A DNA stretch of 64,000 bases from Stenotrophomonas rhizophila (GTDB lineage Bacteria > Pseudomonadota > Gammaproteobacteria > Xanthomonadales > Xanthomonadaceae): contig NZ_CP007597.1 in NCBI RefSeq assembly GCF_000661955.1, forward strand, positions 3,796,338-3,860,337, read 5' to 3'. The notes beneath the pieces were generated by a model. That model did no database searches. It had not been told where the DNA came from and was given only the letters and a program-made list of their open reading frames with translations. Made by a program: the position numbers and the translations under genes. Positions 16,810-32,650 of this stretch are shown here, piece after piece. Each line of letters begins with the position of its first letter. The stretch's first letter is position 1.

Positions 16810-16823
16810 CGGGGCTGACGCGG

Positions 16824-17957
16824 TTACAACGTGCGGCCGATGATCTCGCGCAGGATTTCGCTGCTGCCCCCGAAGATGCGCAGCGCGCGTGCGTCGGTCC
16901 AGGCGCGGCCGATGCCGTACTCGCTGCTGTAGCCGTAGCCACCATGCAACTGCAGCAGGTCGTCGAGGATCGTGCCCTGCAGTTCGGTGGCGTTGAGTTT
17001 GGCCATCGCCGCCACCGTTGCGTCCAACCGGCCTTGCAGCTGCGCGGCCAGGCACTGGTCGAGGAAGCTGCGTAGCATCGCCAGCTGGGCCGCCGCGCCT
17101 GCCAGCACGAAACGGGTGTTCTGGTGGTCGATCAGGAAGCGCCCGAATGCCTTGCGCTGGCGCACGTAGGCCACGGTTTCATCGAGCATGCCCTCGGCCG
17201 ATGCCGCTGCGCGCAACGCGATGGCCATGCGCTCGGCCGCCAGCTGTTCGCCCAGGTAGTCGAAGCCGCGCTGTTCTTCGCCCAGCAGGTGCGACACCGG
17301 TACCGCCACGTCCTGGAAGAACAGCTCGCTGGTGTCCTGCGCGTGCTGGCCGATCTTGGCCATCGGTGCGCCGCGAGTGACGCCGGGCAACGCGGTGTCC
17401 ACGCAGAACAGAGTGAGCCCACGCGCGCCCAGCTCGGGCGCCACGGTGGCCACTACCACCACCACGTCGGCGTTGCTGCCGTTGGTGATCCAGGTCTTCT
17501 GGCCGTTCAGCAGGTAGTGCTCGCCCTGGCGTTCGGCACGGGTGCGGACCGCCTTGAGGTCGCTGCCCGCGCCCGGTTCGGTCATCGCAATGGCGCCGAT
17601 CGCCTCGCCGCGCGCCATCGCTGGCAGCCAGCGCGCGCGTACTTCATCGCTGCCGTACTGCATCAGGTACGGCGCCACCATGTCCGAGTGGATCGAGAAG
17701 CCGATCCCCAGGTAGTTGGCGCGCGCCAGTTCCTCGATCACGCAGGCGGCGTGGCCGATGTCGCCGCCCAGGCCGTACGGCTCGGGCAGCTGGCAGTTGA
17801 GCAGGCCAGCCTCCCCGGCCGCACGCCACAGCGCGCGCGGGGTGATGCCGTCGCGCTCCCACTGTGCGTAGTGCGGGGCGATCTGCTCGGCGATGAAACG
17901 CCGCACCTGCGCGCGGAACAGCGCGTGGTCTTCACCGAATACCGGACGGGTGTGCAT
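16824..17957 (-). CDS. Acyl-CoA dehydrogenase-family flavoprotein, last gene of the exopolysaccharide operon
   Basis: 377 residues with the full acyl-CoA dehydrogenase fold: helical N-domain, the FAD/substrate signature AIAMTEPGAGSDL (~123-134), QKTWITNGSNADVVVVVA (~153-170), and the C-terminal helical domain. The usual medium-chain catalytic Glu in YEGTSQ is replaced here by Gly (IFGGSSEI); instead Glu242 in AERMAIAL aligns by eye with the isovaleryl-CoA-dehydrogenase-type base. The same layout is used by prolyl-carrier-protein oxidases (PltE, RedW, CouN3 class) that make pyrrole-2-carboxyl groups. The ATG is 4 nt after the algF stop, so it is co-transcribed with the adenylation enzyme and carrier protein. 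A substrate bound to that carrier is my inference; an ordinary short-chain acyl-CoA dehydrogenase is the alternative. Confidence 0.85.
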   Translation of the reverse strand: MHTRPVFGEDHALFRAQVRRFIAEQIAPHYAQWERDGITPRALWRAAGEAGLLNCQLPEPYGLGGDIGHAACVIEELARANYLGIGFSIHSDMVAPYLMQYGSDEVRARWLPAMARGEAIGAIAMTEPGAGSDLKAVRTRAERQGEHYLLNGQKTWITNGSNADVVVVVATVAPELGARGLTLFCVDTALPGVTRGAPMAKIGQHAQDTSELFFQDVAVPVSHLLGEEQRGFDYLGEQLAAERMAIALRAAASAEGMLDETVAYVRQRKAFGRFLIDHQNTRFVLAGAAAQLAMLRSFLDQCLAAQLQGRLDATVAAMAKLNATELQGTILDDLLQLHGGYGYSSEYGIGRAWTDARALRIFGGSSEILREIIGRTL

Positions 17958-17960
17958 GGA

Positions 17961-18647
17961 TCAGCGGCCCACCGGGTCGGTGCCGCTGAGCTGGCCCTGC
18001 AGCAACGGGGCGGTGGCGCTGCCGGTCAGGAACAGGCTGTAGTGGTCGCCGGGCTGCAGCGCCGGCAGGGCCAGCGGCGCGCTGTCCTTGCCGCCGCAGC
18101 CGGCCACCAGGCGTGCCTTGACCGGGTTGATGCCGCGCGCACTGCTGCTGCCGCTGGCCACCGCCGGGAACACCACGGCGCCCTTGTCGGCCATGGCCAG
18201 GCGCCCCTGCGCGCAGCCGCTGGCCAGGTTGTAGAAGCGGATCTCGGCCTTGAGCGCGTCGCTGGTGCCACCGCCATCGGCCAGTGCCGCCAGCGGCTTT
18301 GACGGGGCCGCGGCGTCCAGCACCAGGGTGGTGAAGCTGCCGGCGGCAACCTGCGGCTGGCTGCGGGGCTTGCCGGCCACGCGCACGGTGAACGGCTTGC
18401 CGCCCTCCACGATGGCGTAGCGGCTGGCCCGCGTAGCCGGGCCGATGCTCTGTTCGGCGCCCGGACCGACGGCGACCTTGAGCGCGGCGCTGCCCGGGTT
18501 GAGCACGCGCACGAACGCCGAACCGGCTGGCGGCCGTGCCGCATACAGCTGGGCCAGGCGACCTTCGGGGGCGGTCTGCTGGGCGGTGGCGGCCAGCGAC
18601 GAAAGGGCCAGCACGGCGGCGGCGAGCGAGATCAAGGGCAGTTTCAT
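17961..18647 (-). CDS. algF: AlgF-like periplasmic polysaccharide O-acylation adaptor
   Basis: 228 residues with a Sec signal (MKLPLISLAAAVLALSSLAATA) and an all-beta mature part: LAQLYAARPPAGSAFVRVLNPG, ARLVAGCGG and GDHYSLFLTG are the patterns of AlgF, the adaptor that links acyltransferases in alginate acetylation. AlgF in Pseudomonas binds AlgJ and AlgX; two proteins of that type are encoded in this operon. The start overlaps the adenylation gene stop by 4 nt (ATGA). It shows that the modification system is built on the alginate O-acetylation plan, although no alginate polymerase genes are present. Confidence 0.85.
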   Translation of the reverse strand: MKLPLISLAAAVLALSSLAATAQQTAPEGRLAQLYAARPPAGSAFVRVLNPGSAALKVAVGPGAEQSIGPATRASRYAIVEGGKPFTVRVAGKPRSQPQVAAGSFTTLVLDAAAPSKPLAALADGGGTSDALKAEIRFYNLASGCAQGRLAMADKGAVVFPAVASGSSSARGINPVKARLVAGCGGKDSAPLALPALQPGDHYSLFLTGSATAPLLQGQLSGTDPVGR

Positions 18648-20119
18648 GCAGTGGGTTCCTGGCGGCGAAGCGTGCGCGCCATTGCGTAGCGCTGCTCCAG
18701 TTGTCGGCGATCCACCTTGTTGCTGGTGCCGGTCGGCAGCGCATCAACGGCGATCAGCTCAGAGGGAATCATGTACGGCGGCACGCGACGGCCCAGCTGC
18801 GCCTTCCAGTCCTGCAACGACGCCGGCAGCGGCTGCACCGCGCCTTCGCCGGGCTGGGACAGTTCGACGAAGCCGATCATGCGCACCAAGGTGCCATCGG
18901 GCCGGCGCAGAACCACCGCCGCGCCGGCCACCACGCCGTCCAGGGTGGACAGCGAAGCATCCACTTCGGCCAGCTCGATGCGGTAGCCGTTGAGTTTGAT
19001 CTGGTCATCCTTGCGGCCGCGGAAGGTCACCCGCCCTTCCGCATCCAGGTCGCCCAGGTCACCGCTGCGGTAGGCCCGCTTGCCGTGATGGGTGAACAGC
19101 ACGCCCTGGTCCAGGTCCGGGCGATCCAGGTAGCCGCGCATGACGTGGTCGCCGGCCATGCAGATTTCGCCGTCGTCGATGAAGACCTCGGCATAGGGCT
19201 TGGCCACGCCGATCGGGAACGGGTTGGGCGCGGCCGCGCGCAGCGCCGGGTCGATCTCCACCCAGGTGGTGGAACAGGTGGCCTCGGTGGGACCGTAGGA
19301 GTTGATGATGCGCGCCTGCGGGAAGCGCGCCCACAGCTCTTCGGCCACGCGCGGGGTGAGCGATTCGGCGCCGAACACGAACACGCGCAGCGAGGGCAGG
19401 TGCTCGGCGTTGAAGCGCGGGTTGAGCATCTGCTGGCGCACGAACGAGGGCGTGGACGCCCACACCGCCACCGCCGACTGACGCAGGTGTTCGACAAACC
19501 GTTCGCTGTCGGCGATCACCTCGCGCGGGCACAGCACGCAGCTGCCGCCGGTGCCGAGCGCACCGCACAGGTCGAACAGCGAGAAGTCGAAGCTGAAGAG
19601 CATCTGGTTGAGGAAGGCCGGCGCCTCGCCCAGCTGCAGGCAGTCGGTAATCCAGCCGGTGAACAGCGCCACGCTGTCGCGGCCGATCTGCACGCCCTTC
19701 GGGTCACCGGTACTGCCGGAGGTGAACATGATGTAGGCCAGGTCCGGCACGCTGAGCGCGCGCGGTGCGTCGGCACCGGGCCCGAAGGTATCGGTGGCGG
19801 CATCGTAGACCGCGCCGGCATGGGTGAGCTGGGTGATCCGCTGCAGCCGCGCGGCCGGGTTGATGGTGTCCACCGGCACATAGGTGACGCCCATCTGCAG
19901 GCAGCCCAGCATGGCCACCACGAACGCAGACTGCTTGTGCCCGGAGATCACCAACGCGTAGCCGGGCTGCACGCCGGCCGCCTGCGCGCGCCCGATCCAG
20001 GCCTGGGTTGCCGCATGCAGCGCGGCCCAGTCCAGGCTGCCGTCGGCATCGTGCAGGGCCGGTGCATGCGGGGCGTGCTCCAGCGCGACGAAGCGGCAGT
20101 GTTCGAAATCGAAACGCAT
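18644..20119 (-). CDS. DltA-like amino acid adenylation enzyme
   Basis: 491 residues, a stand-alone adenylation domain of the ANL superfamily that should make an aminoacyl-AMP and load it on the carrier protein encoded 28 nt upstream. Motifs: A3 YIMFTSGSTGDPKGV (~155), A4 FSFDFSLFDL with the Asp that normally binds the amino group, A5 NSYGPTEATCSTT, A7 YRSGDLGDLD, A8 GRKDDQIKLNGYRIEL, A10 GTSNKVDRRQL. The middle (VWASTPSFVRQQML, RVFVFGAESLTP) is close to DltA of the teichoic-acid D-alanylation pathway, but the DltA pocket cysteine (FCGE) is Gly here (FGAE), so D-alanine need not be the substrate. Start at 20119 has AGGAG nine bases upstream. Confidence 0.88.
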   Translation of the reverse strand: MRFDFEHCRFVALEHAPHAPALHDADGSLDWAALHAATQAWIGRAQAAGVQPGYALVISGHKQSAFVVAMLGCLQMGVTYVPVDTINPAARLQRITQLTHAGAVYDAATDTFGPGADAPRALSVPDLAYIMFTSGSTGDPKGVQIGRDSVALFTGWITDCLQLGEAPAFLNQMLFSFDFSLFDLCGALGTGGSCVLCPREVIADSERFVEHLRQSAVAVWASTPSFVRQQMLNPRFNAEHLPSLRVFVFGAESLTPRVAEELWARFPQARIINSYGPTEATCSTTWVEIDPALRAAAPNPFPIGVAKPYAEVFIDDGEICMAGDHVMRGYLDRPDLDQGVLFTHHGKRAYRSGDLGDLDAEGRVTFRGRKDDQIKLNGYRIELAEVDASLSTLDGVVAGAAVVLRRPDGTLVRMIGFVELSQPGEGAVQPLPASLQDWKAQLGRRVPPYMIPSELIAVDALPTGTSNKVDRRQLEQRYAMARTLRRQEPTA

Positions 20120-20147
20120 GCGGACAGCTCCTGCAGGTGGGGTGGGC

Positions 20148-20378
20148 TCAGCGCTGGTGCGCGGCCACGTAGTCGGCCAGCACCTGCACCGAATCGACCA
20201 GCGCATCGATCTCATCGACCGGCAGGGTCACGCCCAGGCGGTCCTTGACCTCGACCATCAGCTGCACCTTGGACATCGAGTCGAACAGCGACTCCATGTA
20301 TTCGTCCGGCTGCACGCGGGTGCCGATCACCGCTTCGACGATGTCGATCAACTGGGCCTGGAGGGTCTGGATATCCAT
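20148..20378 (-). CDS. Acyl/peptidyl carrier protein
   Basis: A 76-residue four-helix carrier protein. Ser34 in LFDSMSKVQL sits at the phosphopantetheine site (the usual pattern is DSL/DSM at the start of helix II); the rest, VKDRLGVTLPVDEIDALVDSVQVLADYV, is a normal helix II-III. I start at the ATG 20378 with AAGGTG seven bases upstream, not the GTG three codons earlier. It follows the MBOAT gene by 13 nt and precedes the adenylation gene by 28 nt, the same trio as DltB-DltC-DltA. It presumably carries the activated aminoacyl group to the membrane acyltransferase. Confidence 0.92.
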   Translation of the reverse strand: MDIQTLQAQLIDIVEAVIGTRVQPDEYMESLFDSMSKVQLMVEVKDRLGVTLPVDEIDALVDSVQVLADYVAAHQR

Positions 20379-20391
20379 CGGGTTCACCTTG

Positions 20392-21972
20392 TCAGAACTG
20401 GAAGTAGAGGAAACGGGATTCTTTGTGCAGGCTCAGCAGCGACAGCCCCAGCATCAGCAGCATCACCAGCAGCCACTGCCAGTTGGGCTGCCAGCGCATC
20501 CACGCGCGGGGCGCCGGGCTGGGCTTGGCCAGCGACGGGCCGTACACGCCCATGATCTGCTGCGCGTTGGGTGCCAGCCAGACGATGGCCAGCAGCACCA
20601 GGATGTAGAGCAGCTGCACGTGGTGGCCAGCCAGCAGGCGCCAGCTGTCGCCCAGCCCCATGCCGCCAAGGTAGCCCAGGTTCTCCAGGCTTTCCCAACC
20701 GCGCACGCCGAACATGGCCTGCACCAGCTCCCAGGCATCGTGCACGCCGTCGGCGCGGAAGAACGCCTGCGCCACCAGTACCGCACCGAAGGTGAGCAGC
20801 ACATAGCCGGCGTGCTGGTACCAGCGCAGCTGGCGCAGCGCGGCCGGCTTGCGGCCGCCGACGAACACGCGCCAGGCATGGTTGATGGACAGGTAGCCGG
20901 CATGCAGCAGGCCGAAGATCAGGAACTGCAGGCCCGCGCCGTGCCAGATGCCGGCCAGGCCCATCGCCCACACCGTGGGCAGCACGATCATCGACAGGAA
21001 GCCGCCCGCCGAGGCCACCGCCGCCGGGCCGGTGGCGCGGCCATGGCGGGTACGCCAGCGGGTGACCGCCATCGCCACCGGGTAGTACAGGTAGGCGGTG
21101 ATGTAACGGGTGAGCGTCATGTGCCAGCGCGCCCAGAAGTCGATCACGCTGGTCGCCTTGTAAGGCGAATTGAAGTTGAGCGGGAAGCGGATGCCGAACA
21201 TGCGCGCCAGGCCCAGCGCCATGTCCGAGTACCCGGAAAAATCGAAGTACAGCTGCAGCGCGTAGCTGAGCGCGGTGGCCCAGGCGCCCCAGAACTGCAC
21301 CTCGCCGGTGGAGGCGAAGCCGGCATCGGCATACGGGGCGATGGTGTCGGCCAGCAGTACTTTCTTGGCCAGCCCGATCACGAACAACATGCCGCCCACC
21401 GACAGGTTGTCGGCCTGGAACCGGTAGGTTTCGCGCTTGCTGAACTGCGGCATCATCTCCTTGTGGTGGAGGATGGGGCCGGCGATCAGGTGCGGGAAGA
21501 AGGTCACAAACAGCACGTAGCTGAGCGGGCTGCGGTCGTTGACCACGCCGGCGCGGCAGTCGAGCAGGTAGCCGATCTGGGTGAAGGTGAAGAAGGAAAT
21601 GCCCAACGGCAGGATCAACGCATCCATCGGGCCGACGTTGAAGCCCATCTCGCCGACGAAGTTCACCATCGCCGCGAAGTACTTGTAGTGCACCAGCAAC
21701 AGCAGGTCGGCGGCCACGCCCAGCACGGTGGCCAGCAGCTGCAGTTTCGGTCGCTTGGCCAGCGACAGGATCACCAGGCTGACCAGGTAGTTGAAGACGA
21801 TCGAGCCCGACAGCAGGATCACGAACTGCGGGTTCCACCAGCCGTAGAACACGATGGACGCCACGCACAGCCACAAGGCCGCCAGGCGCGGCTTCACCGC
21901 GCCCAGGGCGTAATGCACGCCCAGCGCGATCGGCAGGAACACCAGCAGGAACAGGAAGGAGTTGAAAAGCAT
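20392..21972 (-). CDS. MBOAT-family O-acyltransferase (AlgI/DltB type)
   Basis: 526 residues, about 11-13 membrane helices, starting MLFNSFLFLLVFLPIALGVHY as in AlgI. Conserved MBOAT landmarks: PLGISFFTFTQIGYLLDC, FFPHLIAGPILHHKEMMPQF, LQLYFDFSGYSDMALGLARMFG, the invariant WHMTLTRYI and the catalytic His in GIWHGAGLQFLIFG (~residue 343). Such proteins carry acyl groups across the inner membrane to periplasmic acyltransferases; DltB uses a carrier protein donor, AlgI acetyl donors. With a carrier-protein gene directly downstream, a DltB-like donor mode is likely here. It lies between the AlgX/J-type genes and the carrier protein. Confidence 0.93.
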   Translation of the reverse strand: MLFNSFLFLLVFLPIALGVHYALGAVKPRLAALWLCVASIVFYGWWNPQFVILLSGSIVFNYLVSLVILSLAKRPKLQLLATVLGVAADLLLLVHYKYFAAMVNFVGEMGFNVGPMDALILPLGISFFTFTQIGYLLDCRAGVVNDRSPLSYVLFVTFFPHLIAGPILHHKEMMPQFSKRETYRFQADNLSVGGMLFVIGLAKKVLLADTIAPYADAGFASTGEVQFWGAWATALSYALQLYFDFSGYSDMALGLARMFGIRFPLNFNSPYKATSVIDFWARWHMTLTRYITAYLYYPVAMAVTRWRTRHGRATGPAAVASAGGFLSMIVLPTVWAMGLAGIWHGAGLQFLIFGLLHAGYLSINHAWRVFVGGRKPAALRQLRWYQHAGYVLLTFGAVLVAQAFFRADGVHDAWELVQAMFGVRGWESLENLGYLGGMGLGDSWRLLAGHHVQLLYILVLLAIVWLAPNAQQIMGVYGPSLAKPSPAPRAWMRWQPNWQWLLVMLLMLGLSLLSLHKESRFLYFQF

Positions 21973-21984
21973 CGTCCGTAGCGC

Positions 21985-23109
21985 TCAGTCGATCTCGGCC
22001 AGCGTTGCCTGCTCACCGTCGGTCAACGGCAAGGACAGGGCCATTTCAGAAAATTCCCAGACCACCAGCTTCAGCGTGGGCGGCCATTGCGCACGCTGCG
22101 GCCAGGCCGCCAGCAGCGCGCCGGAGAACTGCCCGCCATCCAGGCTCTGGTTCCACACTTCGCGCCCCAGCGCATTGCCCAGGCGTTCGGCGAACAGGCT
22201 GCGGCGGCCGTTGGAGCTGCCCAGCAACAGCACCTCCACCGGCGGGGTGTCATCGAGCAGGCCACCACTGCGCACCGGCGCGATCACCTGTTCGGGCTCG
22301 CGGTCCAGCGCCGGGCGCCAGGCCGGCGGCGCCTTCTCCAGCCCGGCGAGCACGATCAGGTCGCCCATGCGCGGCTTGGCCGCACCGGGCGCGCCCACCT
22401 CGAACGCCTGCGCGCCACGCCCGCCCAGCAGCGGCAGCGCCGAGGCGGCCACCGCGTCGGCGGCGCGCTGCGCGCCGATCCGGTTCATGTGCACGTCGGT
22501 GCGGAAGAACACCGGCGCCGTGCCCTGCTGCAGTACCGGCAGCAGGTCGGTGGAGGCCACGTGGGCGGCACCCAGCGCCTGCTGCCACTGGCCCAACCGC
22601 GCGCGCATGGCCGTTGAATGGCGCAACCCGCAGGTATGCGCCTGCTCGATCCGTGACTTGTCCGGCACCACCACCACCAGCACCTGTACGCCCTGCGCCT
22701 TGAGCTGCGTGGTCCAGTGCTGCATCAGCCGCACGCGTTGCTGCAGCACCTGCTCGCCCGCACCCGGCGGCGGGCGCAGCCCGTCGCGGTAGAACAGCCA
22801 GTCCGGGCACCCCAGTGCCACCTGCGGCCCCAGGTCGCCGAGCAGGCGATAGCGCAGCGCGGCCGTGGCCAGGTCGGCCTGGGCCTGCACCGGCAACTTG
22901 AGCGCTTCGTTGATCGCGCGGCCAGCTTCGCCGTCGGCCCAGCGTGCCGGTGCCAACGCGGCCGCGGGGATCTTCGCCTTGCCCAGCATCCAGCCACCGG
23001 CCAGCAGGCCGATGACCAGCAGCGCGATCACCAGCGCGGCGGTGGGACGGTGGGCACCGGGCGGCGCGGCCGGTGGCAGGGGCGCGGGCGCGCCGGGACG
23101 TGCACTCAT
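21985..23109 (-). CDS. AlgX/AlgJ-like SGNH-type acyltransferase (second of two)
   Basis: 374 residues: a Pro/Ala-rich cytoplasmic start, one membrane anchor (TAALVIALLVIGLLAGGWML, ~23-42) and a periplasmic domain. It has WLFYRDG (~104), VVVVPDKSRIE (~145), the Asp-His motif RTDVHMNRIG (Asp205, His207) and the nucleophile loop LLLGSSNGRRSLF (Ser298/299). These correspond to the AlgJ/AlgX catalytic triad pattern Asp-x-His...Ser. It likely transfers the acyl group delivered by the MBOAT onto the glycan. Starts 4 nt after the upstream AlgJ-like gene; the two proteins are paralogues with different membrane association. Confidence 0.85.
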   Translation of the reverse strand: MSARPGAPAPLPPAAPPGAHRPTAALVIALLVIGLLAGGWMLGKAKIPAAALAPARWADGEAGRAINEALKLPVQAQADLATAALRYRLLGDLGPQVALGCPDWLFYRDGLRPPPGAGEQVLQQRVRLMQHWTTQLKAQGVQVLVVVVPDKSRIEQAHTCGLRHSTAMRARLGQWQQALGAAHVASTDLLPVLQQGTAPVFFRTDVHMNRIGAQRAADAVAASALPLLGGRGAQAFEVGAPGAAKPRMGDLIVLAGLEKAPPAWRPALDREPEQVIAPVRSGGLLDDTPPVEVLLLGSSNGRRSLFAERLGNALGREVWNQSLDGGQFSGALLAAWPQRAQWPPTLKLVVWEFSEMALSLPLTDGEQATLAEID

Positions 23110-23113
23110 CGGG

Positions 23114-24169: not shown

Positions 24170-24182
24170 GCCTTTTCCAATG

Positions 24183-27002
24183 TCAGTAGTACAAGGTAGC
24201 GGTAGCGAACAGACCCTTGGCGCGCTGCGTATCGCCGCCGCCCAGGGCGAACCGGTACTGCACGGCCAGGTCCAGGTAGGACCGCGCCGCGTTGTAGTGG
24301 TCTTCGCGGAACCAGTAGCGCACGCCCACGCCGGGGCCGGCACCGAGCGACCAGCTGCGGTCGGTGTCGGACAGGTCGAACGATTGCGCGCCGATCAGCG
24401 GGTAGGTGATGCCGCGTACCTTGGAGCGCTGGTCGATCCAGTCCGCGCCGATCACCAGGTACGGGCTCAACACCCAGCGGGTCTGCTCGGCACCGAAGCG
24501 GTAGCTGCGGCCGGCGCGCAGTTCGGCGGCACCGAACCACTGCTGGCGGCGCAGGCGACCGTCGGAGTCGGTCAGCCGCGCCACGATGTCGCCGTTGCTG
24601 TCGATCTGATCCACGGTGAAGCGCGCGCGGTTGTCATCCCAGGTAAAGCCGGCCTGGGCGTACCCACTGAGCGTCCACCACTGGTTGACGTCGGTGCGCA
24701 CGCCGGTGCCTTTGTAGAAGCCGTAGGTGAGGTAGGACATCCAGCCGCCGGCGTTGTCCTGCAGACGGTAGCGGGCCGCGGTGGTCATCTGCAGCGGCTG
24801 GCTCGATTCGATCTGGATCCGGCACTGGATGGCGGCCGAATCCGGGTACACGCCGCCGTTGCGGGTGGCGGTGCCGAGGAACTGGCGGCGCTCGATGCCG
24901 GCGCTCAGGCCAGTCTGGCCGAAGGTGTAGCGCGCACCGAACGCGCCGATGGTGGACGGCCACCCGGCGATCGACCGCGAGCGGCTGAGCCGCTCGGCGC
25001 GCGTGCGGGCATCCTCGCTGGGGATGCCGGTGCACGGGTCCACCGCCTGCAGCGATTCGAAGGTGCCGCCTTCGTCATACAGCGTGTTGGCCAGGCGCGC
25101 ATACAGTTCCATCGTGCCGTGCTGGTTGTTGAGTTTCTGCGGCCGCCAGAACGCTTCGAGCGTGCCGAACACCGAGTCGCCGGGCGTGCTGATCGCCGCA
25201 CCGCCCAGGTTGGTGGCGGCCTGGCGCGCGCCGCGATAGCCCGCCGACAGCGTCATGCCCCATTCCCGCGAATAGTTGGCGATGGAGCTGCGCGTGTTGT
25301 AGCGCTGCGCGGCATCCAACGGCAGCGTGCCGGCGTCGGCGCTGTCGATCGCCCCGCGCAGCAGCGTCACCGCCTGCGGGTGCTGGCCGAGCGCCGCGTT
25401 GGAATAGGCCTGGTCCAGCACCACCGTGGGCGGTGCCTTGCCGGTTGCCTCGGCCGCCTGGAAATCGCCCAGTGCGCTGCGCGGATCACCCGCGCGCTGG
25501 TTGAGGTAGCCGCGCTGCATCAGCAGACCGGCATCCTGCGGCGTGGTGGCCAGGGCGGTATCCAGGCGCTGGCGGGCTTCGGCCTGCTGGCTGCGGTCGC
25601 CGGCGGCCAGCGAGGTGGTGAGCAGCGACTGCAATGGCGCGCTGTCCTGCGCCGCCTGCACGGCCTTGCGCGCCTCCTCGATGGCCTGCTGGTAGTCCTG
25701 CCGACCGTAGGCGGCATAGGCACGCTGGGCGGCGCCGCCCTCGCCCTGCAGGTCGGTGGGGGTCAGTTCGCATTGGGTGCCGTAGGGCGTTTCGCGGCAC
25801 TGCTGGATCGGCGCGGGATAGCTGGTGTCGGTGAGCGCCACGCCCGGTCGCGCCGAGCGCATCGAACGGGTGCGCAGCGCCACCGCATCGGCGATGGCAC
25901 GGCGTGTATCGGCATCTTCGTCGGTCAGTGGATCGGTGCGCAGCGGGGCCAGCAGGCGCTCGGCACGCTCACGGTCACCCGCGGCCAGCGCCGCATCCAC
26001 CGCCAGCAGACGCACGTTGCGTTGCTGCTGGCCATCCAGCCAATCCTGGGCCAGCACGTGGTCGAAGTCTGCATTGGCCTGCGCGCTGCGACCCAGCCGT
26101 TGCTGCAGGTAGCCGCGCATCACCAGCGCGTTGGTGTCTTCATTGTCCTGGGCGATCGCATCGGATGCGGCATCTACCGCCTCGGGCAACTGGTTGCTGA
26201 GCAGCAAGGCGGTCATCAGCAGCAAGCGATGGCTGCCCGACTCCGGCGCCAGTTCCACCGCCTGGCGCGCGGGTGCCACGGCATCCTGCGGACGCAGGGC
26301 GATCAACGCCTGGTAGCCGGCCTGCGCCGGCACGACCGCCTGCTCGCGTTTGATGCGCAACTGCGCGGCAAGAATATCGGTGCGGTTCGGCGCGCCCAGC
26401 GACAGCGCGGTGGCCGCCGCCTGCTGCGCCTCGTCCAGCTTGCCGCCGGCCTCCAGCGAGGCCACCCACAGGATCGCCCAGGCACCCTGCTGCGGCTGCT
26501 GGCGGAAGGCCTGCTCGGCCTTGCTGGCGGCTTCTTCCATACGGTCACTGTTGAACGCCTCGTAGGCCTGGGCCGCCAAGGGAAACGCGCGTTGATAGGC
26601 CAGCTCGGCCGCGGTCGGGCGGGCGGCGGTGGCACCACGCACGTTGGTGCCAGCGGCGGCGGCACGCGGTGCAGCGGCGGCCAGCCCCGGCAGGGCCGGG
26701 TCGGTGATGCCATCGGCAAGTGCCCGGCGCGCCAGCGCGCGCGCCTCGTCGGTGCGGCCCAGTTTCTGCGCCGCGTAGATCTGCAGCAGGCGCAGGCGCG
26801 CCACGTCCGGCCGCAACCGCACCGCTTCGCTGGCGGTACGGTAGGCCTGTTGATAGTCGCCACGGTCGTAGGCACCGAAGGCCTGTTCGGCGATGCGGTA
26901 CGCGTTGCCCGACAGCGGCAGCGATTCCTGCGCGTGCACGCTGGCACTGCCCAGGCCGATCAGACTCAGCGCGATCACGCTGGAAAGCAGGGTGGTTCTC
27001 AT
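24183..27002 (-). CDS. nfrA: NfrA-like TPR/outer-membrane glycan exporter
   Basis: 939 residues: Sec signal (MRTTLLSSVIALSLIGLGSA ... HA), then TPR-like helical repeats over about 30-620 (for example AYDRGDYQQAYRTASEAVRL, LMQRGYLNQRAGDPRSALGD), then a beta-rich C-terminal third (RYTFGQTGLSAGIERRQFLG, AELRAGRSYRFGAEQTRW, YLDLAVQYRFALGGGD) ending ATATLYY, as expected of an outer-membrane barrel. This layout matches NfrA, the phage N4 receptor partner of NfrB in E. coli (about 990 residues), and resembles BcsC. It should carry the polysaccharide across the outer membrane. Start overlaps the nfrB stop by 4 nt. Confidence 0.85.
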   Translation of the reverse strand: MRTTLLSSVIALSLIGLGSASVHAQESLPLSGNAYRIAEQAFGAYDRGDYQQAYRTASEAVRLRPDVARLRLLQIYAAQKLGRTDEARALARRALADGITDPALPGLAAAAPRAAAAGTNVRGATAARPTAAELAYQRAFPLAAQAYEAFNSDRMEEAASKAEQAFRQQPQQGAWAILWVASLEAGGKLDEAQQAAATALSLGAPNRTDILAAQLRIKREQAVVPAQAGYQALIALRPQDAVAPARQAVELAPESGSHRLLLMTALLLSNQLPEAVDAASDAIAQDNEDTNALVMRGYLQQRLGRSAQANADFDHVLAQDWLDGQQQRNVRLLAVDAALAAGDRERAERLLAPLRTDPLTDEDADTRRAIADAVALRTRSMRSARPGVALTDTSYPAPIQQCRETPYGTQCELTPTDLQGEGGAAQRAYAAYGRQDYQQAIEEARKAVQAAQDSAPLQSLLTTSLAAGDRSQQAEARQRLDTALATTPQDAGLLMQRGYLNQRAGDPRSALGDFQAAEATGKAPPTVVLDQAYSNAALGQHPQAVTLLRGAIDSADAGTLPLDAAQRYNTRSSIANYSREWGMTLSAGYRGARQAATNLGGAAISTPGDSVFGTLEAFWRPQKLNNQHGTMELYARLANTLYDEGGTFESLQAVDPCTGIPSEDARTRAERLSRSRSIAGWPSTIGAFGARYTFGQTGLSAGIERRQFLGTATRNGGVYPDSAAIQCRIQIESSQPLQMTTAARYRLQDNAGGWMSYLTYGFYKGTGVRTDVNQWWTLSGYAQAGFTWDDNRARFTVDQIDSNGDIVARLTDSDGRLRRQQWFGAAELRAGRSYRFGAEQTRWVLSPYLVIGADWIDQRSKVRGITYPLIGAQSFDLSDTDRSWSLGAGPGVGVRYWFREDHYNAARSYLDLAVQYRFALGGGDTQRAKGLFATATLYY

Positions 27003-29143
27003 GCCTTCAGCTCTCCGGTGGCGCTGTATTGGGGTTGGCCCGAGCGGCGGTGCTGCTCGCGCACTGCTTCGGCAATCGCCGCTTCGGTGGCGACACCGTG
27101 CTTGACCAGGTAGTCGCCGATGCGGCCGTCGCGCTGCGGCTTGTATTCGTCCAGCACGCGCTCGAACTGGTCGCGTGCGATCAGCCGCATCTCCACCAGC
27201 AGGTCGCCCAGTAGCGGCACGGCGTCGATGCGGTAGGTTTCACCGCTGATCAGGCGCAGGCCCGCATTGATTTCGCTCTCGCGCGCGATCGACTGCGTCA
27301 GTCCGGTGGCATGCACATCGTGCAGCAACTGGGCCTGCTCGGCCTCGCTGAGCGGGTTGGCCACCGCGATCGACAAGGTATCGGCGGTGCTGCCCGGCAG
27401 CGGCAACAGGCGCCACTGCACGCAGGCTTCGACCGAGAGCGGGAACTGTCCGGCCTGCAGGTAGTCGACGTCGATCACCGCGCGGGCCAGGTCGCCCTGG
27501 AAGGCGATCGCCTCGGCCAGGGTTTCATCGTCCAACCAGCCCTGCGACACCAGGATGCGGCCCAGCGGCTGCTGGCGCCCGCCCTGCTGTTGCTGCAGCG
27601 CCTGCTCCAGCCGCTCCGGCTCCACGGCCTGCCAGGTGGTGAGCAGTTCGCCCAGGCGCTTGCGGGTCTGCACCAGCTGCGAGGCACTGGGGAAATCGTG
27701 CATGGTCTTGTCCCACACCATGCGCTTGCCGAACAGCAGGTACAGCAGGAACATCCGCCACGCGCGCGCGGTGGCCATGAAGTTGATCATGTTGCCGACC
27801 ACCATGCGCGGGATCGACATCAACGCGTGTTCCCAGCCGTACAGCTTGTTGACGAAGTAGAAGCGCTGCACCACGCGGGTGGCCAGCGCGGCGGTGGTGA
27901 TCAGCGCCACGTTCATCTGCCAGGTGCCGGCCTGGAAAATGGTCGGGAACTGGGTGGTCCATACCCCGGTCACCTTGAGCAGCCAGAACAGCAGCAGCTG
28001 CAGGAAGATGATGTAGGCGATGATGCTGATGAACGAGGTGACGATGCCCTTGCGGTCGCGCGCCAGCAGGTACTTGGTGGCCAGCGAACCGCGCCAGCCC
28101 AGCGTCTCCCAGCTCTGCAGGCCGATACCCAGCACCCAGCGCGCTTTCTGCCGGTAGGAGGCACGGAAGTTGTCGGGGAAATACTCGCGCACGCACAGCG
28201 CCATCGACTGGGTGCTCTCGCGCACCGGTCCCCACCCGAACCACGACGGCCGGCGCACGCGGAACTGCACCGGGAAGCGGGCGAAGATCGAATGCATGCC
28301 CATCGCCGCCAGCCGCGCACCCACGTCGTAGTCTTCGGTGAGGCTGTCGGTGTTGAACGGCTGGTTGTCGGTGGCCTCACTCAGCGCCAGCAGCGCCTTG
28401 CGCGAGAAGCAGGTGCCGACGCCGGCCGAGGGCACCATGCCGGACACGCTTTCGCGCACCACCAGGTCCTTGGCATGCCACTCGGCGAACTCGTCCATGT
28501 ACACGCCGGCGATCAGCTCGTACCACTCGCGGTCCAGCGAGGTGACCGGCAACTGGATCATGTCCTTGCGCGGCAGCAGGTAGTTGAAGAAGCGCAGCTC
28601 CATCGGGTGCAGCACGTCTTCGCTGTCGTGCAGGATGACCCCGGCAAATTCGATGTCGTGGCGCTTCTCGTAGTCGAAGATCGACAGGATCAGCCAGTTC
28701 AGGCAGTCGGCCTTGCTGGTCGGGCCGGCATGCGGCACTTCCACGCGGCGCAGGCGCTTGTAGCGCCGCCGCATGCGCTCCACTTCGGCGATGGTCTCGG
28801 CGTCGTTGGGATAGGTGCCGACAAAGACGATGTACTCGCGGTAGTCGAGCACATCGATCATGTTCTCCACCATCTGCGCGATCACGTCGTACTCGGCCCA
28901 GGCCGGCACCATGATCGCCAGCGGCTGCTCCGGACGCTGCAGCAGGTCCTGCTGGGTCAGCGGGCGGTATTCGCGGCGCTTCTTGACGGTCAGGGTGCGC
29001 CAGCTTTCGCGCACCCAGTACCAGATGTCGATGAACAGGTCGTCGAGGCTGGAGATCAGGATCAGCACGGCGACCGCCGCTGCCACTGTTTCCAGGGCAG
29101 CGTAGTAGTTGGCCAGCTGGATGTTCCAGAACAGACCGTCCAC
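26999..29143 (-). CDS. nfrB: NfrB-like processive GT2 glycosyltransferase with MshEN domains
   Basis: 714 residues. Membrane helix ~15-33, then a GT2 domain with a complete processive-synthase signature: TSKADCLNW (142-150), DSED (173-176), TED (269-271) and RQKARW (331-336), then about four helices (~350-480). The C-terminal 230 residues hold MshEN-type segments: LGELLTTWQAV (~494), PLGRILVSQGWLDDETLAEA (~525), LLGDLLVEMRLI (~643) and RIGDYLVKHGVAT (~673). E. coli NfrB has the same GT2 plus MshEN plan and is activated by c-di-GMP through that domain to make a ManNAc-type glycan. Here it is preceded by the BcsB-like gene (6-nt gap), and wecB in the operon supplies the likely donor. Confidence 0.92.
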   Translation of the reverse strand: MDGLFWNIQLANYYAALETVAAAVAVLILISSLDDLFIDIWYWVRESWRTLTVKKRREYRPLTQQDLLQRPEQPLAIMVPAWAEYDVIAQMVENMIDVLDYREYIVFVGTYPNDAETIAEVERMRRRYKRLRRVEVPHAGPTSKADCLNWLILSIFDYEKRHDIEFAGVILHDSEDVLHPMELRFFNYLLPRKDMIQLPVTSLDREWYELIAGVYMDEFAEWHAKDLVVRESVSGMVPSAGVGTCFSRKALLALSEATDNQPFNTDSLTEDYDVGARLAAMGMHSIFARFPVQFRVRRPSWFGWGPVRESTQSMALCVREYFPDNFRASYRQKARWVLGIGLQSWETLGWRGSLATKYLLARDRKGIVTSFISIIAYIIFLQLLLFWLLKVTGVWTTQFPTIFQAGTWQMNVALITTAALATRVVQRFYFVNKLYGWEHALMSIPRMVVGNMINFMATARAWRMFLLYLLFGKRMVWDKTMHDFPSASQLVQTRKRLGELLTTWQAVEPERLEQALQQQQGGRQQPLGRILVSQGWLDDETLAEAIAFQGDLARAVIDVDYLQAGQFPLSVEACVQWRLLPLPGSTADTLSIAVANPLSEAEQAQLLHDVHATGLTQSIARESEINAGLRLISGETYRIDAVPLLGDLLVEMRLIARDQFERVLDEYKPQRDGRIGDYLVKHGVATEAAIAEAVREQHRRSGQPQYSATGELKA

Positions 29144-29149
29144 GGCCGG

Positions 29150-31363
29150 TCAGTGACCGTTGCTTGCGGACGTGCGGCGACGACGGACCTGGGTTACACG
29201 GGCCGCCAACAGCGCGAACACCACCAGCCCGACCAGCACCAGCAACCACACCATGTGCTGTTGCCACCAGGGCTGCGGATTGCCGCTCTCGGCCAGGCGC
29301 GCGCCATAGGGGTCGTGGCTGTCGAAATCGCTGACCACGCCGCTGCCGTCGAGCACGGCCAGGTCGCCGCGCAACAGACGGAACGGCTGGTCCAGCGCCG
29401 GGCCCTGCACGCCGAGGTCGTTGTAGAGCACGCCGGTATGGCCACCCCCGTCCACCACCTGCACGGCTGCGGCACGGTCCAGGCCGGCCAGGTCGAGCAG
29501 CGGCTGGGTGGCACCGTTGACCACCAGGCGGCCGTCCTTCAGACCGGCCGGCGTGACCCCGGAGGGGGCCAGTGCGAAGGCCAGGTAAGGCCGCCCCGGG
29601 CTGATCGCGGTACCGGCAGCGACCACCTTCAGTTCAGCCGCCTGCGGCGACACGCCGACCGCGCTGGCGATGGCGATCACCTTGGCCAGCGACGCCGGGG
29701 CGTCCTGCAGCCAGCTGGCCGGTACGAACACCTCATTGGCGTGGGCCAGCTGGCTGGCGGCACCGACGAAGTCGGCGTCCAGGGTGCGCTTGGCCAGCGT
29801 CAGGTGGCTGCTGGGCAGGATCGATACCGGGAACGCGGTTGCCGGGTCATGGCAGTACGGACGCGCCGGCTGGCGCAGGAAGCTGATGCGCACCTCGTTG
29901 CGTGCGGCCAGCGCGTAGGCCGGCACCTTGGCCACCAGCCGCTGCGGCTTGCCGTCGGCGGCGAGCACCTTGGCGCCCAGCAGGTAATCGTTGACGTAGA
30001 GGCTGGCCACCGCGCCCTGCCCGGCCGCGTTGGGTGCGGCGGACACGTCGACCACCACCTGGTCGGGCAGTCGGCCGTCGGCCGACAGCGCACCGAGTGC
30101 GAAGCTGGCGGTGCGATCGCCGCGGGTCACGATGTCCAGGGTGCCGGCGATATTGCCCAGGCGACTGAGCAGGACCGCGTTGTCGCCCACCGGTGCCGGG
30201 CTGGCTTCGGTCACCTGCAGGGTGTGGCCCAGTGCATAGGCGCGCCACTGTTCACTGAGCAGGCCGGCCACCTTGGCGCCGGCGTTGGCCGCCACCACCA
30301 GGGTCGGGCGCCCGGCCACGGCGGCGACGCTGACCGACGCGGTGCCGGTGCCCTTTTCCAGCGCGGCCATGTCGCTGCCCCGCCAGGCGCTGAAGGCGCT
30401 GGCGGCATCGCCGCCACTGGCACCGACCTCGGTGGCCAGTGCATCCAGGGCGGCGCGCACGCCGGCACGCAGCGGGTCGGTACTGATCGCCACGTCGATG
30501 GCCAACGGACCGCTGTCGCGCAGCGACAGCAGCGCCCCGACTTCGGCCAGGCTGGCAATGCGATGCTGGGTGCCGCCTGCGGCCAGCGCCGCATACGCCG
30601 GCACGCCCTGCAGGCTGGCCGGAATGGAGACGCCGGTGAGGTCCACCGTGCTGCCCACCACTGGCAGTGCCACCACGTCCACCTGCTTGCCGCCGTTGCG
30701 CAGCGCCGCGCCCACCCGCCAGGCGGCGTCGTAGGCCGGTGCCTGCAGCGCCTTGCCATCCACCAGCACGCGCACGCGCGTCGGCAGTGCGCCCCAGGCC
30801 TTGGCCACGGTGTTCACCGCACGCCCATCGAAGCGGTAGCTGAAACGCGAGTCCGGCGACAGCCGCAGCACGTTGGCCGGCGCGCTCTGGTCGGCGCAGC
30901 GGTAGTCGGACACCACCGACCACCAGCCCACGGCCACGCGGACGAAGCCGTTGTCACGCGGCAGGCCATCGATGGCCAACAGCTGGCTGGCATCGCCCTG
31001 CGCATCGGTGATCGACCGCGCCGCAACCGGGTCGCCGTCGACCGACCACAAGCCCGAACTGCGCCCGGTATGACCGCGTACGTAGCGGCCATCCAGCTGC
31101 AACTGCGCGTCGCGGGTCGGCACGCCGGCCGGGACCGGCAGGTAGATTTCGCGCTGGCTTTCCTGGCCGCTGAGGGTCAGCGGCTGGCGGAAGCCCAGCT
31201 CACGCAGCGTCATGCTGCGCGTCACGGTGGCGTCGGCCGCCCACTCGGTGAACTGCCCGGCCGCGGTGTCGGCGGCGTAGGCAGGACTGAGGGGGAGTGC
31301 CAGGACCAGGGCCAGCGGTAATACCTGGGGAAAACGAGCGGTACTACGGTTGGTCGGGGTCAT
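29150..31363 (-). CDS. BcsB-like periplasmic polysaccharide synthase subunit
   Basis: 737 residues: Sec signal (VLPLALVLALPLSPAYA), a large beta-rich periplasmic part with repeated jelly-roll/flavodoxin-like sections as in BcsB (MTLRELGFRQPLTLSGQESQ at the start; VSIPASLQGVPAYAALAAGG; LPDQVVVDVSAAPN; NEVRISFLRQPARPYCHD), and a single C-terminal membrane anchor (HMVWLLVLVGLVVFALLAARV) ending in a basic tail RRRRTSASNGH. BcsB partners the membrane cellulose synthase and guides the polymer through the periplasm; here it should do so for the NfrB-like synthase. ATGA overlap with wecB. In-frame start at 31363. Confidence 0.85.
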   Translation of the reverse strand: MTPTNRSTARFPQVLPLALVLALPLSPAYAADTAAGQFTEWAADATVTRSMTLRELGFRQPLTLSGQESQREIYLPVPAGVPTRDAQLQLDGRYVRGHTGRSSGLWSVDGDPVAARSITDAQGDASQLLAIDGLPRDNGFVRVAVGWWSVVSDYRCADQSAPANVLRLSPDSRFSYRFDGRAVNTVAKAWGALPTRVRVLVDGKALQAPAYDAAWRVGAALRNGGKQVDVVALPVVGSTVDLTGVSIPASLQGVPAYAALAAGGTQHRIASLAEVGALLSLRDSGPLAIDVAISTDPLRAGVRAALDALATEVGASGGDAASAFSAWRGSDMAALEKGTGTASVSVAAVAGRPTLVVAANAGAKVAGLLSEQWRAYALGHTLQVTEASPAPVGDNAVLLSRLGNIAGTLDIVTRGDRTASFALGALSADGRLPDQVVVDVSAAPNAAGQGAVASLYVNDYLLGAKVLAADGKPQRLVAKVPAYALAARNEVRISFLRQPARPYCHDPATAFPVSILPSSHLTLAKRTLDADFVGAASQLAHANEVFVPASWLQDAPASLAKVIAIASAVGVSPQAAELKVVAAGTAISPGRPYLAFALAPSGVTPAGLKDGRLVVNGATQPLLDLAGLDRAAAVQVVDGGGHTGVLYNDLGVQGPALDQPFRLLRGDLAVLDGSGVVSDFDSHDPYGARLAESGNPQPWWQQHMVWLLVLVGLVVFALLAARVTQVRRRRTSASNGH

Positions 31364-32541
31364 GGCGTCACTTCGGAAAGGGAGGATTGGGACAGCGGCG
31401 CCGCATGGGCGGCCACGAACTCGTCGAACGGTTCACCGCGCAGCGCGGCAACGATCCGCGCCGAGGCGCGTCCGTCGCCGTACGGGCTGGCATCGGCGAT
31501 GAAGTGCGCCGCCACCCGCGGCCCGTTGCAGGCGTCGTGCACGGCAGCCACGATCCGCGCCGGATCGGTGCCCACCAGGCGCACCACGCCGGCCTGCACC
31601 GCTTCGGGGCGCTCGGTGACATCGCGCATCACCAGGACCGGGCGGCCCAGCGCCGGGGCTTCTTCCTGCACGCCGCCGGAGTCGGTCAGCACCACATGCG
31701 CGCGCTGCATCAGGCGCACGAAGCTGAGGTAATCCTGCGGTGGAATCAGGTGCACGTTGTCCAGCCCGCCCAGATGGGCATGCACCGGCCCCTGCACGTT
31801 CGGGTTGAGGTGCACCGGGTACACGATCTGCAGGTCGTCGCGCAGGGCCAGCTCGGCCAGCGCGCGGCAGATGTTCTCGAAGCCGCCGCCGAAGTTCTCG
31901 CGGCGGTGGCCGGTGACCAGCAGCAGCTTGCGCTGGCTTTCCAGGAACGGGAAATGCGCGTCGATCGAGGTGCGCAGCGTCGCGTCCTGGTCGATGCGTT
32001 CGACGGTCTGCTTGAGCGCGTCGATGACGGTGTTGCCGGTTACGCTGATGCGCCCGGCCAGGTTTTCCTGTTCCAGGTTGTAGCGCGAGCTGTTGGTGGG
32101 GGCGAACAGATGATCGGCGACCACGTCGATCACGCGGCGGTTCATCTCTTCGGGCCACGGCTGCTGCAGGTCGCCGGTGCGCAGGCCGGCTTCAACGTGC
32201 GCCACCGGAATGCGGCGGTGGAAGGCCGCCAGCGCCGCGGTCATCGCCGTGCTGGTATCGCCGTGCACCAGCACCCGGTCCGGCTGTACCTGTTCGTAGA
32301 GCGCGTCGAGTTTGGCGAACAGACGGGAACACAGCCCGTTGAGGGTCTGGTTGGCGACCATGACATCGAGGTCGTGATCGGGGTGGATGTCGAACAGCGA
32401 CATCACCTGGTCAAGCATCGCCCGGTGTTGGCCGGTGATGCAGACGATGGACTCGATGCCCGGCGCGGCATGCAGCGCGCGGACCAGCGGTCCCATCTTG
32501 ATGGCTTCAGGCCGCGTACCAAAAACAGATAGAACCTTCAC
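31360..32541 (-). CDS. wecB: UDP-N-acetylglucosamine 2-epimerase (non-hydrolysing)
   Basis: Converts UDP-GlcNAc to UDP-ManNAc, the sugar donor for ManNAc-containing glycans. 393 residues of GT-B fold: VLSVFGTRPEAIKMGPLV at the N-terminus, HGDTSTAMTAALAAFHRRI, VAHVEAGLRTGD, PEEMNRRVID, GHRRENFGGGF, and LTDSGGVQEEAPALGRPVLV near residue 290, all diagnostic. The start is the GTG at 32541 (VKVLSVFG), with AGGGAG nine bases upstream; an upstream TTG is in frame but poor. First gene of the eleven-gene exopolysaccharide operon. The 171-bp region before it holds two CRP/Clp-like boxes and a perfect palindrome. Confidence 0.95.
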   Translation of the reverse strand: MKVLSVFGTRPEAIKMGPLVRALHAAPGIESIVCITGQHRAMLDQVMSLFDIHPDHDLDVMVANQTLNGLCSRLFAKLDALYEQVQPDRVLVHGDTSTAMTAALAAFHRRIPVAHVEAGLRTGDLQQPWPEEMNRRVIDVVADHLFAPTNSSRYNLEQENLAGRISVTGNTVIDALKQTVERIDQDATLRTSIDAHFPFLESQRKLLLVTGHRRENFGGGFENICRALAELALRDDLQIVYPVHLNPNVQGPVHAHLGGLDNVHLIPPQDYLSFVRLMQRAHVVLTDSGGVQEEAPALGRPVLVMRDVTERPEAVQAGVVRLVGTDPARIVAAVHDACNGPRVAAHFIADASPYGDGRASARIVAALRGEPFDEFVAAHAAPLSQSSLSEVTP

Positions 32542-32569
32542 CCGACTGCTCCCTGTGATGACCAACGAC

Positions 32570-32585
32570 TGTGACTTCCATCACG
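32570..32585 (-). promoter_or_regulatory. CRP/Clp-like box proximal to wecB
   Basis: TGTGACTTCCATCACG matches the TGTGA-N6-TCACA consensus of CRP and the Xanthomonadaceae homologue Clp at nine of ten positions. It is centred 37 nt upstream of the wecB GTG, close to where transcription should start. Confidence 0.6.
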
Positions 32586-32623: not shown

Positions 32624-32639
32624 CGTGATGGATATCACA
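32624..32639 (-). promoter_or_regulatory. CRP/Clp-like box distal to wecB
   Basis: Minus-strand TGTGATATCCATCACG is again TGTGA-N6-TCACG, nine of ten consensus bases, centred 90 nt before the wecB start and 54 bp from the proximal box. Its half-site order matches the proximal box read from the other strand. Confidence 0.65.
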
Positions 32640-32650
32640 TTTCCCCGGGA

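Follow-up and report, generated by a model that had tools for sequence, protein, structure and literature searches.

Why should an operon for an exported glycan carry the loading enzymes of a carrier-protein pathway? The question is raised by a locus of Stenotrophomonas rhizophila (NCBI RefSeq assembly GCF_000661955.1), whose genome is a single 4.65-Mb contig (NZ_CP007597.1); the window analysed here is a stretch of 64,000 nucleotides (nt) of it (positions 3,796,338 to 3,860,337), and all coordinates below are those of the window. Eleven genes run on the minus strand from 32541 to 16824. An original prediction, made from the letters alone, had listed them as wecB, a bcsB-like gene, nfrB, nfrA, two algJ/X-like genes and the genes of a membrane-bound O-acyltransferase (MBOAT), a carrier protein, a DltA-like enzyme, AlgF and an acyl-CoA-dehydrogenase (ACAD)-like protein, joined by overlaps or gaps below 30 nt; all are present, and domain searches support the names. 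We consider it probable that the locus is an exopolysaccharide machine linked to cyclic di-GMP (c-di-GMP), equipped with a decoration cassette that draws on a carrier protein and can be exchanged between nfr cores.

By their sequence, the first four genes form an Nfr-type core for a c-di-GMP-linked exopolysaccharide, in which a fusion of glycosyltransferase family 2 (GT2) with MshEN, an NfrA exporter and WecB are all found. The wecB gene (31360..32541) encodes a non-hydrolysing UDP-GlcNAc 2-epimerase for the supply of UDP-ManNAc (TIGR00236, 449 bits against a cut-off of 210; Pfam Epimerase_2, 381 bits), and the next gene a weakly assigned BcsB-like periplasmic protein (29150..31363; PF03170, 30 bits, residues 48-178 only). 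NfrB (26999..29143) is a GT2 polysaccharide synthase with a C-terminal MshEN-type module, scoring 1164 bits with the PRK15489 family (cut-off 537), 82 bits with the c-di-GMP/MshE-related NF053729 (cut-off 38) and, slightly below the cut-off of 23.1, 21.7 bits with Pfam MshEN; its glycosyltransferase motifs HDSEDV, LTEDYD and QKARW are each kept in 25 of 25 aligned sequences. NfrA (24183..27002) combines tetratricopeptide repeats with an outer-membrane exporter (NfrA_C PF13283, 80 bits).

The genes that follow encode an acyl relay. Two SGNH O-acyltransferases come first, AlgX1 (23114..24169; PF16822, 227 bits), whose N-terminus looks by eye like a signal peptide, and the AlgJ-like AlgX2 (21985..23109; PF16822, 219 bits), which by eye has a hydrophobic N-terminal anchor; Asp-x-His and Ser in the former and Asp-Val-His and GSS in the latter are conserved in 25/25 sequences. 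They precede a 526-residue MBOAT acyltransferase (20392..21972; PF03062, 65 bits; RWH and WHG in 25/25), while algF lies further on (17961..18647; PF11182, 66 bits). The C-terminus of the MBOAT is the acyl-shuttle hexapeptide FLYFQF, of the form FXYXXF (codons at 20395..20412), found as RFLYFQF in 25/25 aligned sequences and closing 77 of 78 MBOAT rows, two of which are duplicates. The sole exception, L182, is apparently frameshifted: its MBOAT frame seems broken, giving two tblastn pieces without the FLYFQF end in a locus of the window's type that is otherwise complete. For comparison, a control dra-type locus (L116), which we named dra from its gene set, lies in a genome of Bordetella genomosp. 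1 that also has a locus of the window's type; it holds a 375-residue DltB-like MBOAT without the motif, a short DltX-like frame whose last residues are FQYQQF, DltD, and a carrier with a ligase of another pocket. Excerpts of a 2025 paper describe two kinds of MBOAT-SGNH pathway and give FXYXXF as the motif of acyl shuttling: Dlt draws on a carrier thioester and bears the motif on a separate shuttle peptide, DltX, whereas in the non-Dlt pathways, which are without a carrier and evidently use an acyl-CoA donor, the motif is part of the MBOAT itself (PMC12148441). We read the window MBOAT as a carrier-fed hybrid of the two, predicted to combine the fused shuttle of alginate-type acylases with Dlt-like donor enzymes. 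The locus shares with AlgIJFX-type systems the fused C-terminal FXYXXF, the ALGX/J partners and AlgF, and departs from them in that a carrier gene is present in the operon and that its MBOAT does not group with AlgI.

That core and relay are separable units is seen from their distribution. Among 150 relatives, own genome included, NfrB is present in 31 and the ligase in 10, all of which also have NfrB; the ligase is closest to those of Stenotrophomonas genomes. Four core-only Stenotrophomonas loci that were fetched read wecB-bcsB-nfrB-nfrA followed by a convergent gene for a DUF4434 protein, and in loci of the window's type the cassette genes sit between nfrA and the DUF4434 gene; the seven genes after nfrA are a separable decoration cassette, present or absent beside the same core within one genus. 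A scan of genome contigs gave 26 loci, with ligases 64-94% identical in 24 and distant (27-29%) in two. The 24 span Stenotrophomonas, Xanthomonas, Bordetella, Pandoraea and Pseudomonas, and every one has bcsB, nfrB, nfrA, algX1, algX2, MBOAT, ligase and algF, in one common order in 23/24; in S. daejeonensis algF precedes algX1. The nfrB-nfrA-...-MBOAT-ACP-ligase block (ACP, acyl carrier protein) is found again in these genera and in further relatives, and because it recurs across them, the block is not a chance arrangement.

Further afield, a class-wide draw of 369 genomes yielded the ligase only in the own genome (1/369) and NfrB in 7/369, own included, and no ligase was found in a plasmid collection at E 1e-90. 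Family surveys with the window MBOAT as bait (E <=1e-110 and <=1e-120), in which acetyl-only and core-only loci are under-counted, gave matches in 25/268 genomes of the Bordetella genome's family and 33/329 of the Pandoraea genome's family; 24 of the 25 loci of the former (G554, split over contigs, was left out) and 33/33 of the latter were examined. The system is rare overall and concentrated in some families. After removal of L175 and L177, which duplicate L037 and L038 and are kept in the counts of pocket and shuttle rows, the census comprises 78 distinct MBOAT loci: 56 of the window's type (A), 14 of a type B, seven of a type C and one on a short contig without assignable type; on the short contig L180 a carrier is seen and no loader. 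Core-only loci and a carrier-free version on a plasmid of Paraburkholderia dioscoreae lie outside this set, which rests on the MBOAT bait. NfrB accompanies 55/56 A-type loci, the exception being a 3.3-kb contig. In the B-type loci (L157-L168, L181, L183) the ligase is 45-49% identical to the window's, and nfrB is seen in 12, the other two contigs being cut. In type C an FkbH protein and a carrier replace the ligase (323 bits in L149 and 311 in L150; in the others FkbH was recognised by similarity), and nfrB is present in six; these nfr-linked loci (L149, L150, L153-L156) have a fused-shuttle MBOAT, their own carrier and a VOC/epimerase-like protein. In polyketide pathways, carriers are charged with glyceryl units by FkbH proteins; by analogy such loading would here be used on a polysaccharide, and a glyceryl-type decoration is predicted for the FkbH-type nfr loci. 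S. daejeonensis (L021/L096) is a mosaic, with divergent nfrA, algF and algX1 in B/C-type order, an A-type MBOAT, carrier and ligase, and no ACAD gene.

Which group would the window cassette transfer? The carrier (20148..20387; PF00550, 26 bits) has a predicted phosphopantetheine Ser37 in LFDSM, with Asp-Ser conserved in 21/21 aligned sequences, and among solved structures it comes closest to a D-alanyl carrier protein (25 bits). The ligase (18644..20119) is a DltA-related adenylating enzyme of the amino-acid type (AMP-binding, 185 bits) that reaches 345 bits with the DltA model TIGR01734, below the equivalog cut-off of 560; its start is probably near 20119 rather than at the open-reading-frame start 20215 inside the ACP gene, because of the gene layout and the N-termini of relatives. 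Against solved structures it scores 245 bits with DltA, 182 with prolyl ligases and 111 with chain 4oxi, named enterobactin synthetase F-related protein by its depositors, which we take to be AlmE. Ten specificity positions, whose numbers we take to follow the GrsA convention, were read by alignment in 70 ligase rows (L185 was too short for inclusion). The window pocket, DFFAVGSCSK, occurs in 52 of these rows and is identical in 52/55 A-type rows (two of the 52 being duplicate contigs), L133 and L171 differing at one position each and L148 at three. The pocket DLYVLCTVAK occurs in 15/70 rows, namely the 14 of type B and the Bordetella DraA-type ligase, whose Cys we take, by motif, for the presumed counterpart of DltA Cys-269. 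As a separate observation, a third enzyme related to DltA is encoded in two Bordetella genomes (L122, L123); it shares about 42% identity with the window ligase across 366-371 residues.

These pockets bear on the rival that survives best, ordinary D-alanylation, by which the ligase would load D-Ala, like Dlt or Bordetella Dra, for esters on the Nfr polymer. DltA is indeed the closest characterised family, the ligase is accompanied by a small carrier and retains both the Asp and the Lys that mark the amino-acid site (Asp178, Lys468), and the sister loci of type B have exactly the DraA-type pocket. Yet eight of ten positions differ between the window and DraA pockets, and the window ligase lacks the D-Ala-selective pocket, with Gly250 in place of the Cys, in a constellation that scarcely varies among A-type rows. 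Passages of a study of Bacillus cereus DltA report that Asp-197 holds the amino group and that Cys-269, at the bottom of the D-Ala pocket, selects against L-Ala, a selection that C269A relaxes (PMC4176424). The change from Cys to Gly would give room for an L- or larger residue. The ACAD gene, moreover, is found in 0/14 B-type as against 44/55 usable A-type loci. D-Ala as first choice for the loaded group was dropped on the ligase pocket, and we regard D-alanylation by the window locus as unlikely. With a DraA-like pocket in B and Gly for Cys in A, the B-type loci probably D-alanylate, giving a predicted D-alanylation of exopolysaccharide in Burkholderiaceae relatives, while the A-type ligases probably load an amino acid other than D-alanine. 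D-alanylation is the activity described for the B. pertussis dra locus in the text available of PMC9410548.

A second rival keeps the relay and discards the donor enzymes: MBOAT, AlgX and AlgF would transfer plain acetyl groups from acetyl-CoA, with ligase, carrier and ACAD serving another pathway. AlgX, AlgF and the fused shuttle match the alginate type, an nfr cluster with an acetylation-like gene set is already on record in the main text of PMC8669469, and plasmid pII of Paraburkholderia dioscoreae has an nfr core with algF-MBOAT-algX-algX for which no carrier, ligase or ACAD is listed. Against it stands the constancy of the carrier. The window's carrier alone retrieved one by tblastn in 20 of the 24 scanned loci; with carrier queries from relatives added, it was found in 56/56 distinct A-type, 14/14 B-type and 7/7 C-type loci, next to the MBOAT wherever positions were printed. 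An MBOAT tree of 40 rows likewise unites all carrier-associated MBOATs (support 86); two AlgI-like proteins fall outside, together with the P. dioscoreae MBOAT from the locus without a carrier (97). The two AlgI rows, MBOAT matches in two Pseudomonas genomes, are presumed to be AlgI. We therefore hold acetylation by the window locus to be improbable and retain a carrier-fed relay.

The same tree, compared with one of NfrB, suggests how cassettes and cores came together. Both, and the 33-row trees below, were built from chosen locus subsets by a quick method, with SH-aLRT (approximate likelihood-ratio) support only. Each carrier-bearing type lies on one side of a branch of the MBOAT tree (A 99, B 92, C 79). 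In the NfrB tree of 52 rows, core-only loci included (L055, L058 and L061 bear that label solely because no ligase was found in their genomes), cassette labels are mixed, with 12 changes against a minimum of 5. On the same 33 A/B/C rows the labels change twice on the MBOAT tree, the minimum, and six times on the NfrB tree, and on NfrB a single clade is rejected by the approximately unbiased (AU) test for A (p-AU 0.0002) and for C (p-AU 1.7e-6), the groups having been set by gene content after the 52-row tree was known. Because the MBOAT phylogeny follows cassette type and the NfrB phylogeny does not, the MBOAT with its loader and carrier moves as a unit between nfr cores, so that cassettes have been exchanged. 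In another rival reading the cassette would serve some other envelope polymer, such as lipopolysaccharide or peptidoglycan, and would share only a promoter with the nfr core. The core does occur without the cassette, and an FkbH-ACP-MBOAT locus (L169) lies away from nfr genes; we nevertheless find this quite improbable, since nfrB stands in the same stretch in all A-type loci except the 3.3-kb contig, across several genera, and every ligase-bearing genome among the 150 relatives has NfrB.

The last gene, acad (16824..17957), encodes an LCAD-related (long-chain ACAD) flavoprotein with three Pfam ACAD domains, in which the catalytic Glu position is kept; ER is conserved in 20/20 aligned sequences, and the Glu position is that of long-chain ACAD, of which one chain has Gln. 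Copies of at least 82% identity occur only in 9/10 ligase-bearing genomes among the 150 relatives, the next best reaching at most 49%; the genome without a close copy is G030, with the S. daejeonensis contig. The role of the protein would most simply be oxidation of the carrier-bound group. Its partnership with ligase and carrier is that of a prolyl-carrier set, and it scores 200 bits with RedW and 181 with PigA among NCBIfam prolyl-carrier dehydrogenases, but a prodiginine-type route, with proline loaded by the ligase and turned by the ACAD into a pyrrole or dehydroproline to give a polymer with pyrrole-2-carboxylate, is very improbable and was dropped on ACAD affinity and ligase pocket, because the ACAD is far closer to mitochondrial LCAD, its best solved relative (350 bits), than to prolyl-ACP dehydrogenase (165 bits), the prolyl ligases fall below DltA, and DFFAVGSCSK is, as we presume, unlike proline pockets.

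Several observations weigh against a dedicated carrier-fed Nfr decoration machine. BcsB-like is the least secure label among the eleven genes and a weak one: a 23-sequence profile searched against solved structures found no BcsB, and the name is borne by certain homologues as given by their source. In the MBOAT tree, support for type C and for the carrier-associated group is moderate and the outgroup branch very long. L169 (genome G892) is a C-type locus with no nfr genes found nearby, and the MBOATs of its clade may act on other polymers. As to the flavoprotein, 11/55 A-type loci are free of it (nine Pandoraea or Pandoraea-like, S. daejeonensis and G786) and keep the same pocket except L148, and no copy was found elsewhere at E 1e-85 in nine searched genomes of these loci. 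Two of the nearest outside ACADs (49% and 47%) adjoin genes that, from translations read by eye, are CoA-transferase- or thiolase-like, contexts that look like beta-oxidation sets for CoA esters and not for carrier-bound amino acids. Given the loci without any copy, the ACAD step is not essential everywhere; we so take it for a dedicated yet dispensable tailoring step, as its distribution suggests, and loci that have the ACAD may end up with another acyl group than those that do not.

Based on the above data, we propose the following mechanism. Gene content, motifs, conservation and exchange come from the sequences, whereas the chemistry of each step and the nature of both the attached group and the polymer are inferred. 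WecB would provide UDP-ManNAc, and NfrB, switched by c-di-GMP at its MshEN module, would polymerise an amino-sugar chain with help from the BcsB-like protein; by analogy with E. coli Nfr, NfrA would export this chain. The adenylating enzyme would activate a small amino acid, probably not D-alanine, and bind it as a thioester to the carrier, where the ACAD-like flavoprotein would, in most loci, probably oxidise the acyl group. The MBOAT would then carry the group across the inner membrane to the Tyr of its own C-terminal FLYFQF, from which AlgX2 and AlgX1, with AlgF, would hand it on, by way of a catalytic Ser, to one of the polymer's hydroxyls. The MBOAT travels jointly with loader and carrier as an exchangeable cassette on otherwise ordinary nfr cores. 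A bolder version, which we put forward tentatively as possible, is that Nfr bacteria swap whole acyl-donor cassettes, each with its own MBOAT (none or acetyl; D-Ala-type ligase and carrier; DFF-pocket ligase and carrier, with or without ACAD; FkbH and carrier), so that one backbone would bear different esters, that of the window being an oxidised aminoacyl ester other than D-Ala. We know of no polysaccharide with such an oxidised ester. Phages may drive the swapping, a suggestion made by analogy because the E. coli Nfr glycan is the receptor of phage N4, as given in the portions cited of PMC8669472.

The layout of the genes fits a single transcription unit, which is likely for all eleven. Overlaps of 4 nt join wecB to bcsB, nfrB to nfrA and the ligase gene to algF; elsewhere the gaps measure 6 nt (bcsB-nfrB), 13 (nfrA-algX1), 4 (algX1-algX2), 12 (algX2-MBOAT), 4 (MBOAT-ACP), 28 (ACP-ligase, with the ligase start at 20119) and 3 (algF-ACAD), so that gaps range from 3 to 28 nt throughout. 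On the plus strand the gene for the DUF4434 protein (15743..16750; PF14488, 176 bits) converges on the operon end; detected in 54/56 A-type loci (undetected in L148 and in the 3.3-kb contig, L185), it is a twelfth gene and part of the locus though outside 16824..32541. A search of the whole 64 kb for TGTGA-N6-TCACA with at most one mismatch found two CRP/Clp-like boxes only, both in the intergenic stretch before wecB and on the minus strand, TGTGATATCCATCACG (32624..32639) and CGTGATGGAAGTCACA (32570..32585), each with 9/10 matches and starting 98 and 44 nt before wecB, respectively; two or more such sites arose in 32/100 shuffles, so that the count by itself is not unusual. Among cassette-bearing Stenotrophomonas loci, most keep boxes before wecB, with two each in L091 and L094, one in L096 and a perfect one in both L092 and L095; weaker ones, with 8/10 matches only, stand in L093, in Xanthomonas L121 and in the core-only loci L083-L086, and of 15 further loci one has an 8/10 match and 14 none. 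Clp, the CRP-like regulator of this bacterial family, responds to c-di-GMP. Scans of 15600-33200 gave no sigma-70 promoter site and, for terminators, matches at chance level only, and Rfam at gathering threshold had no match inside the operon.

Elsewhere in the window, an FMN riboswitch (3083-3227, minus strand, 115.5 bits) lies near a ribBA-like gene at 1287-2384, and upstream of the operon come type II secretion genes with a subtilase (35697-48838, minus strand; secretin, PilN-like, T2SSK, T2SSF, T2SSE). The T2SSE ATPase (44811-46748) has its own MshEN domain (51 bits), which makes it, some 16 kb from nfrB, the second MshEN protein predicted to bind c-di-GMP. A trimeric autotransporter adhesin of 2536 residues follows (48845-56455, minus strand); its signal peptide is extended, and it has YadA repeats of head and stalk.

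How does the locus compare with systems already known? With the NfrB-NfrA-YbcH/WecB system of E. coli, which makes the NGR glycan used as phage N4 receptor, it shares the GT2-MshEN synthase, the NfrA exporter and WecB, and its NfrB belongs to a sister subfamily (649 bits with the E. coli NfrB equivalog model, under the cut-off of 1170). We take E. coli YbcH to be a DUF4434 protein, so that a DUF4434 gene after the nfr genes would be common to both. The E. coli operon, nfrBA-ybcH in the main text of PMC8669469, differs in being without an acylation cassette and without a BcsB-like gene. Binding of c-di-GMP has been shown for E. coli NfrB, while ManNAc in the polymer was proposed from genetics, not chemically, and the structure of that polymer was unsolved as of the 2021 papers, in the parts cited here (PMC8669469, PMC8669472). 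AlgIJFX alginate O-acetylation shares the MBOAT with C-terminal FLYFQF, the SGNH partners and AlgF; it differs in having no carrier protein, evidently an acyl-CoA donor and alginate as its polymer, according to the excerpts of PMC12148441. Dlt and Bordetella Dra share a DltA-related ligase and a carrier protein feeding an MBOAT, with an acyl-Tyr shuttle, whereas the window has the shuttle fused instead of on a separate DltX, and partners of PF16822 with AlgF instead of DltD (PF04914). Glycylation of lipid A by Vibrio cholerae AlmEFG has in common the adenylating enzyme and carrier protein in a Gram-negative envelope. There, lipid A receives the group, and the transferase is not of the MBOAT family. 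FkbH glyceryl-carrier loading is met in relatives, where FkbH and carrier form an alternative cassette beside the MBOAT, and not in the window; P. dioscoreae pII shares the nfr core, MBOAT, two AlgX and AlgF, its MBOAT grouping with AlgI-like proteins.

Set against these systems, the original prediction was right to join an Nfr-type core to an MBOAT/AlgX/AlgF relay fed by a carrier and an adenylating enzyme, and its term Dlt-like describes the donor side well; it does not suit the fused-shuttle MBOAT, the ALGX partners in place of DltD or the Gly that replaces the selective Cys. Its view that no such system had been described needs narrowing, as Junkermeier and Hengge (2021) noted that the nfr cluster of Simplicispira suum encloses a set of alginate-acetyltransferase-like genes, in a main text where the words carrier, ligase and dehydrogenase are absent (PMC8669469). 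An open-access literature search, which also covered FkbH together with MBOATs and polysaccharides, found no description of the carrier-fed nfr version. What the analysis adds to that prediction is the DUF4434 gene, the shuttle peptide that ends the MBOAT, the conservation of CRP/Clp-like boxes and the other cassette types seen in further genomes. Nfr polymer systems and MBOAT-SGNH acylation were known already, while no description was found of a cassette that joins carrier feeding and a fused shuttle with exchangeable loaders. Beside the two MBOAT-SGNH kinds distinguished in the 2025 paper, the window locus and its relatives seem to represent a third, in which a carrier feeds an MBOAT with fused shuttle and the loading enzyme is exchanged. 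Comparison among such near relatives makes the donor choice of an MBOAT testable, and the chemically distinct decorations predicted for the Nfr polymer can be checked in several non-model genera.

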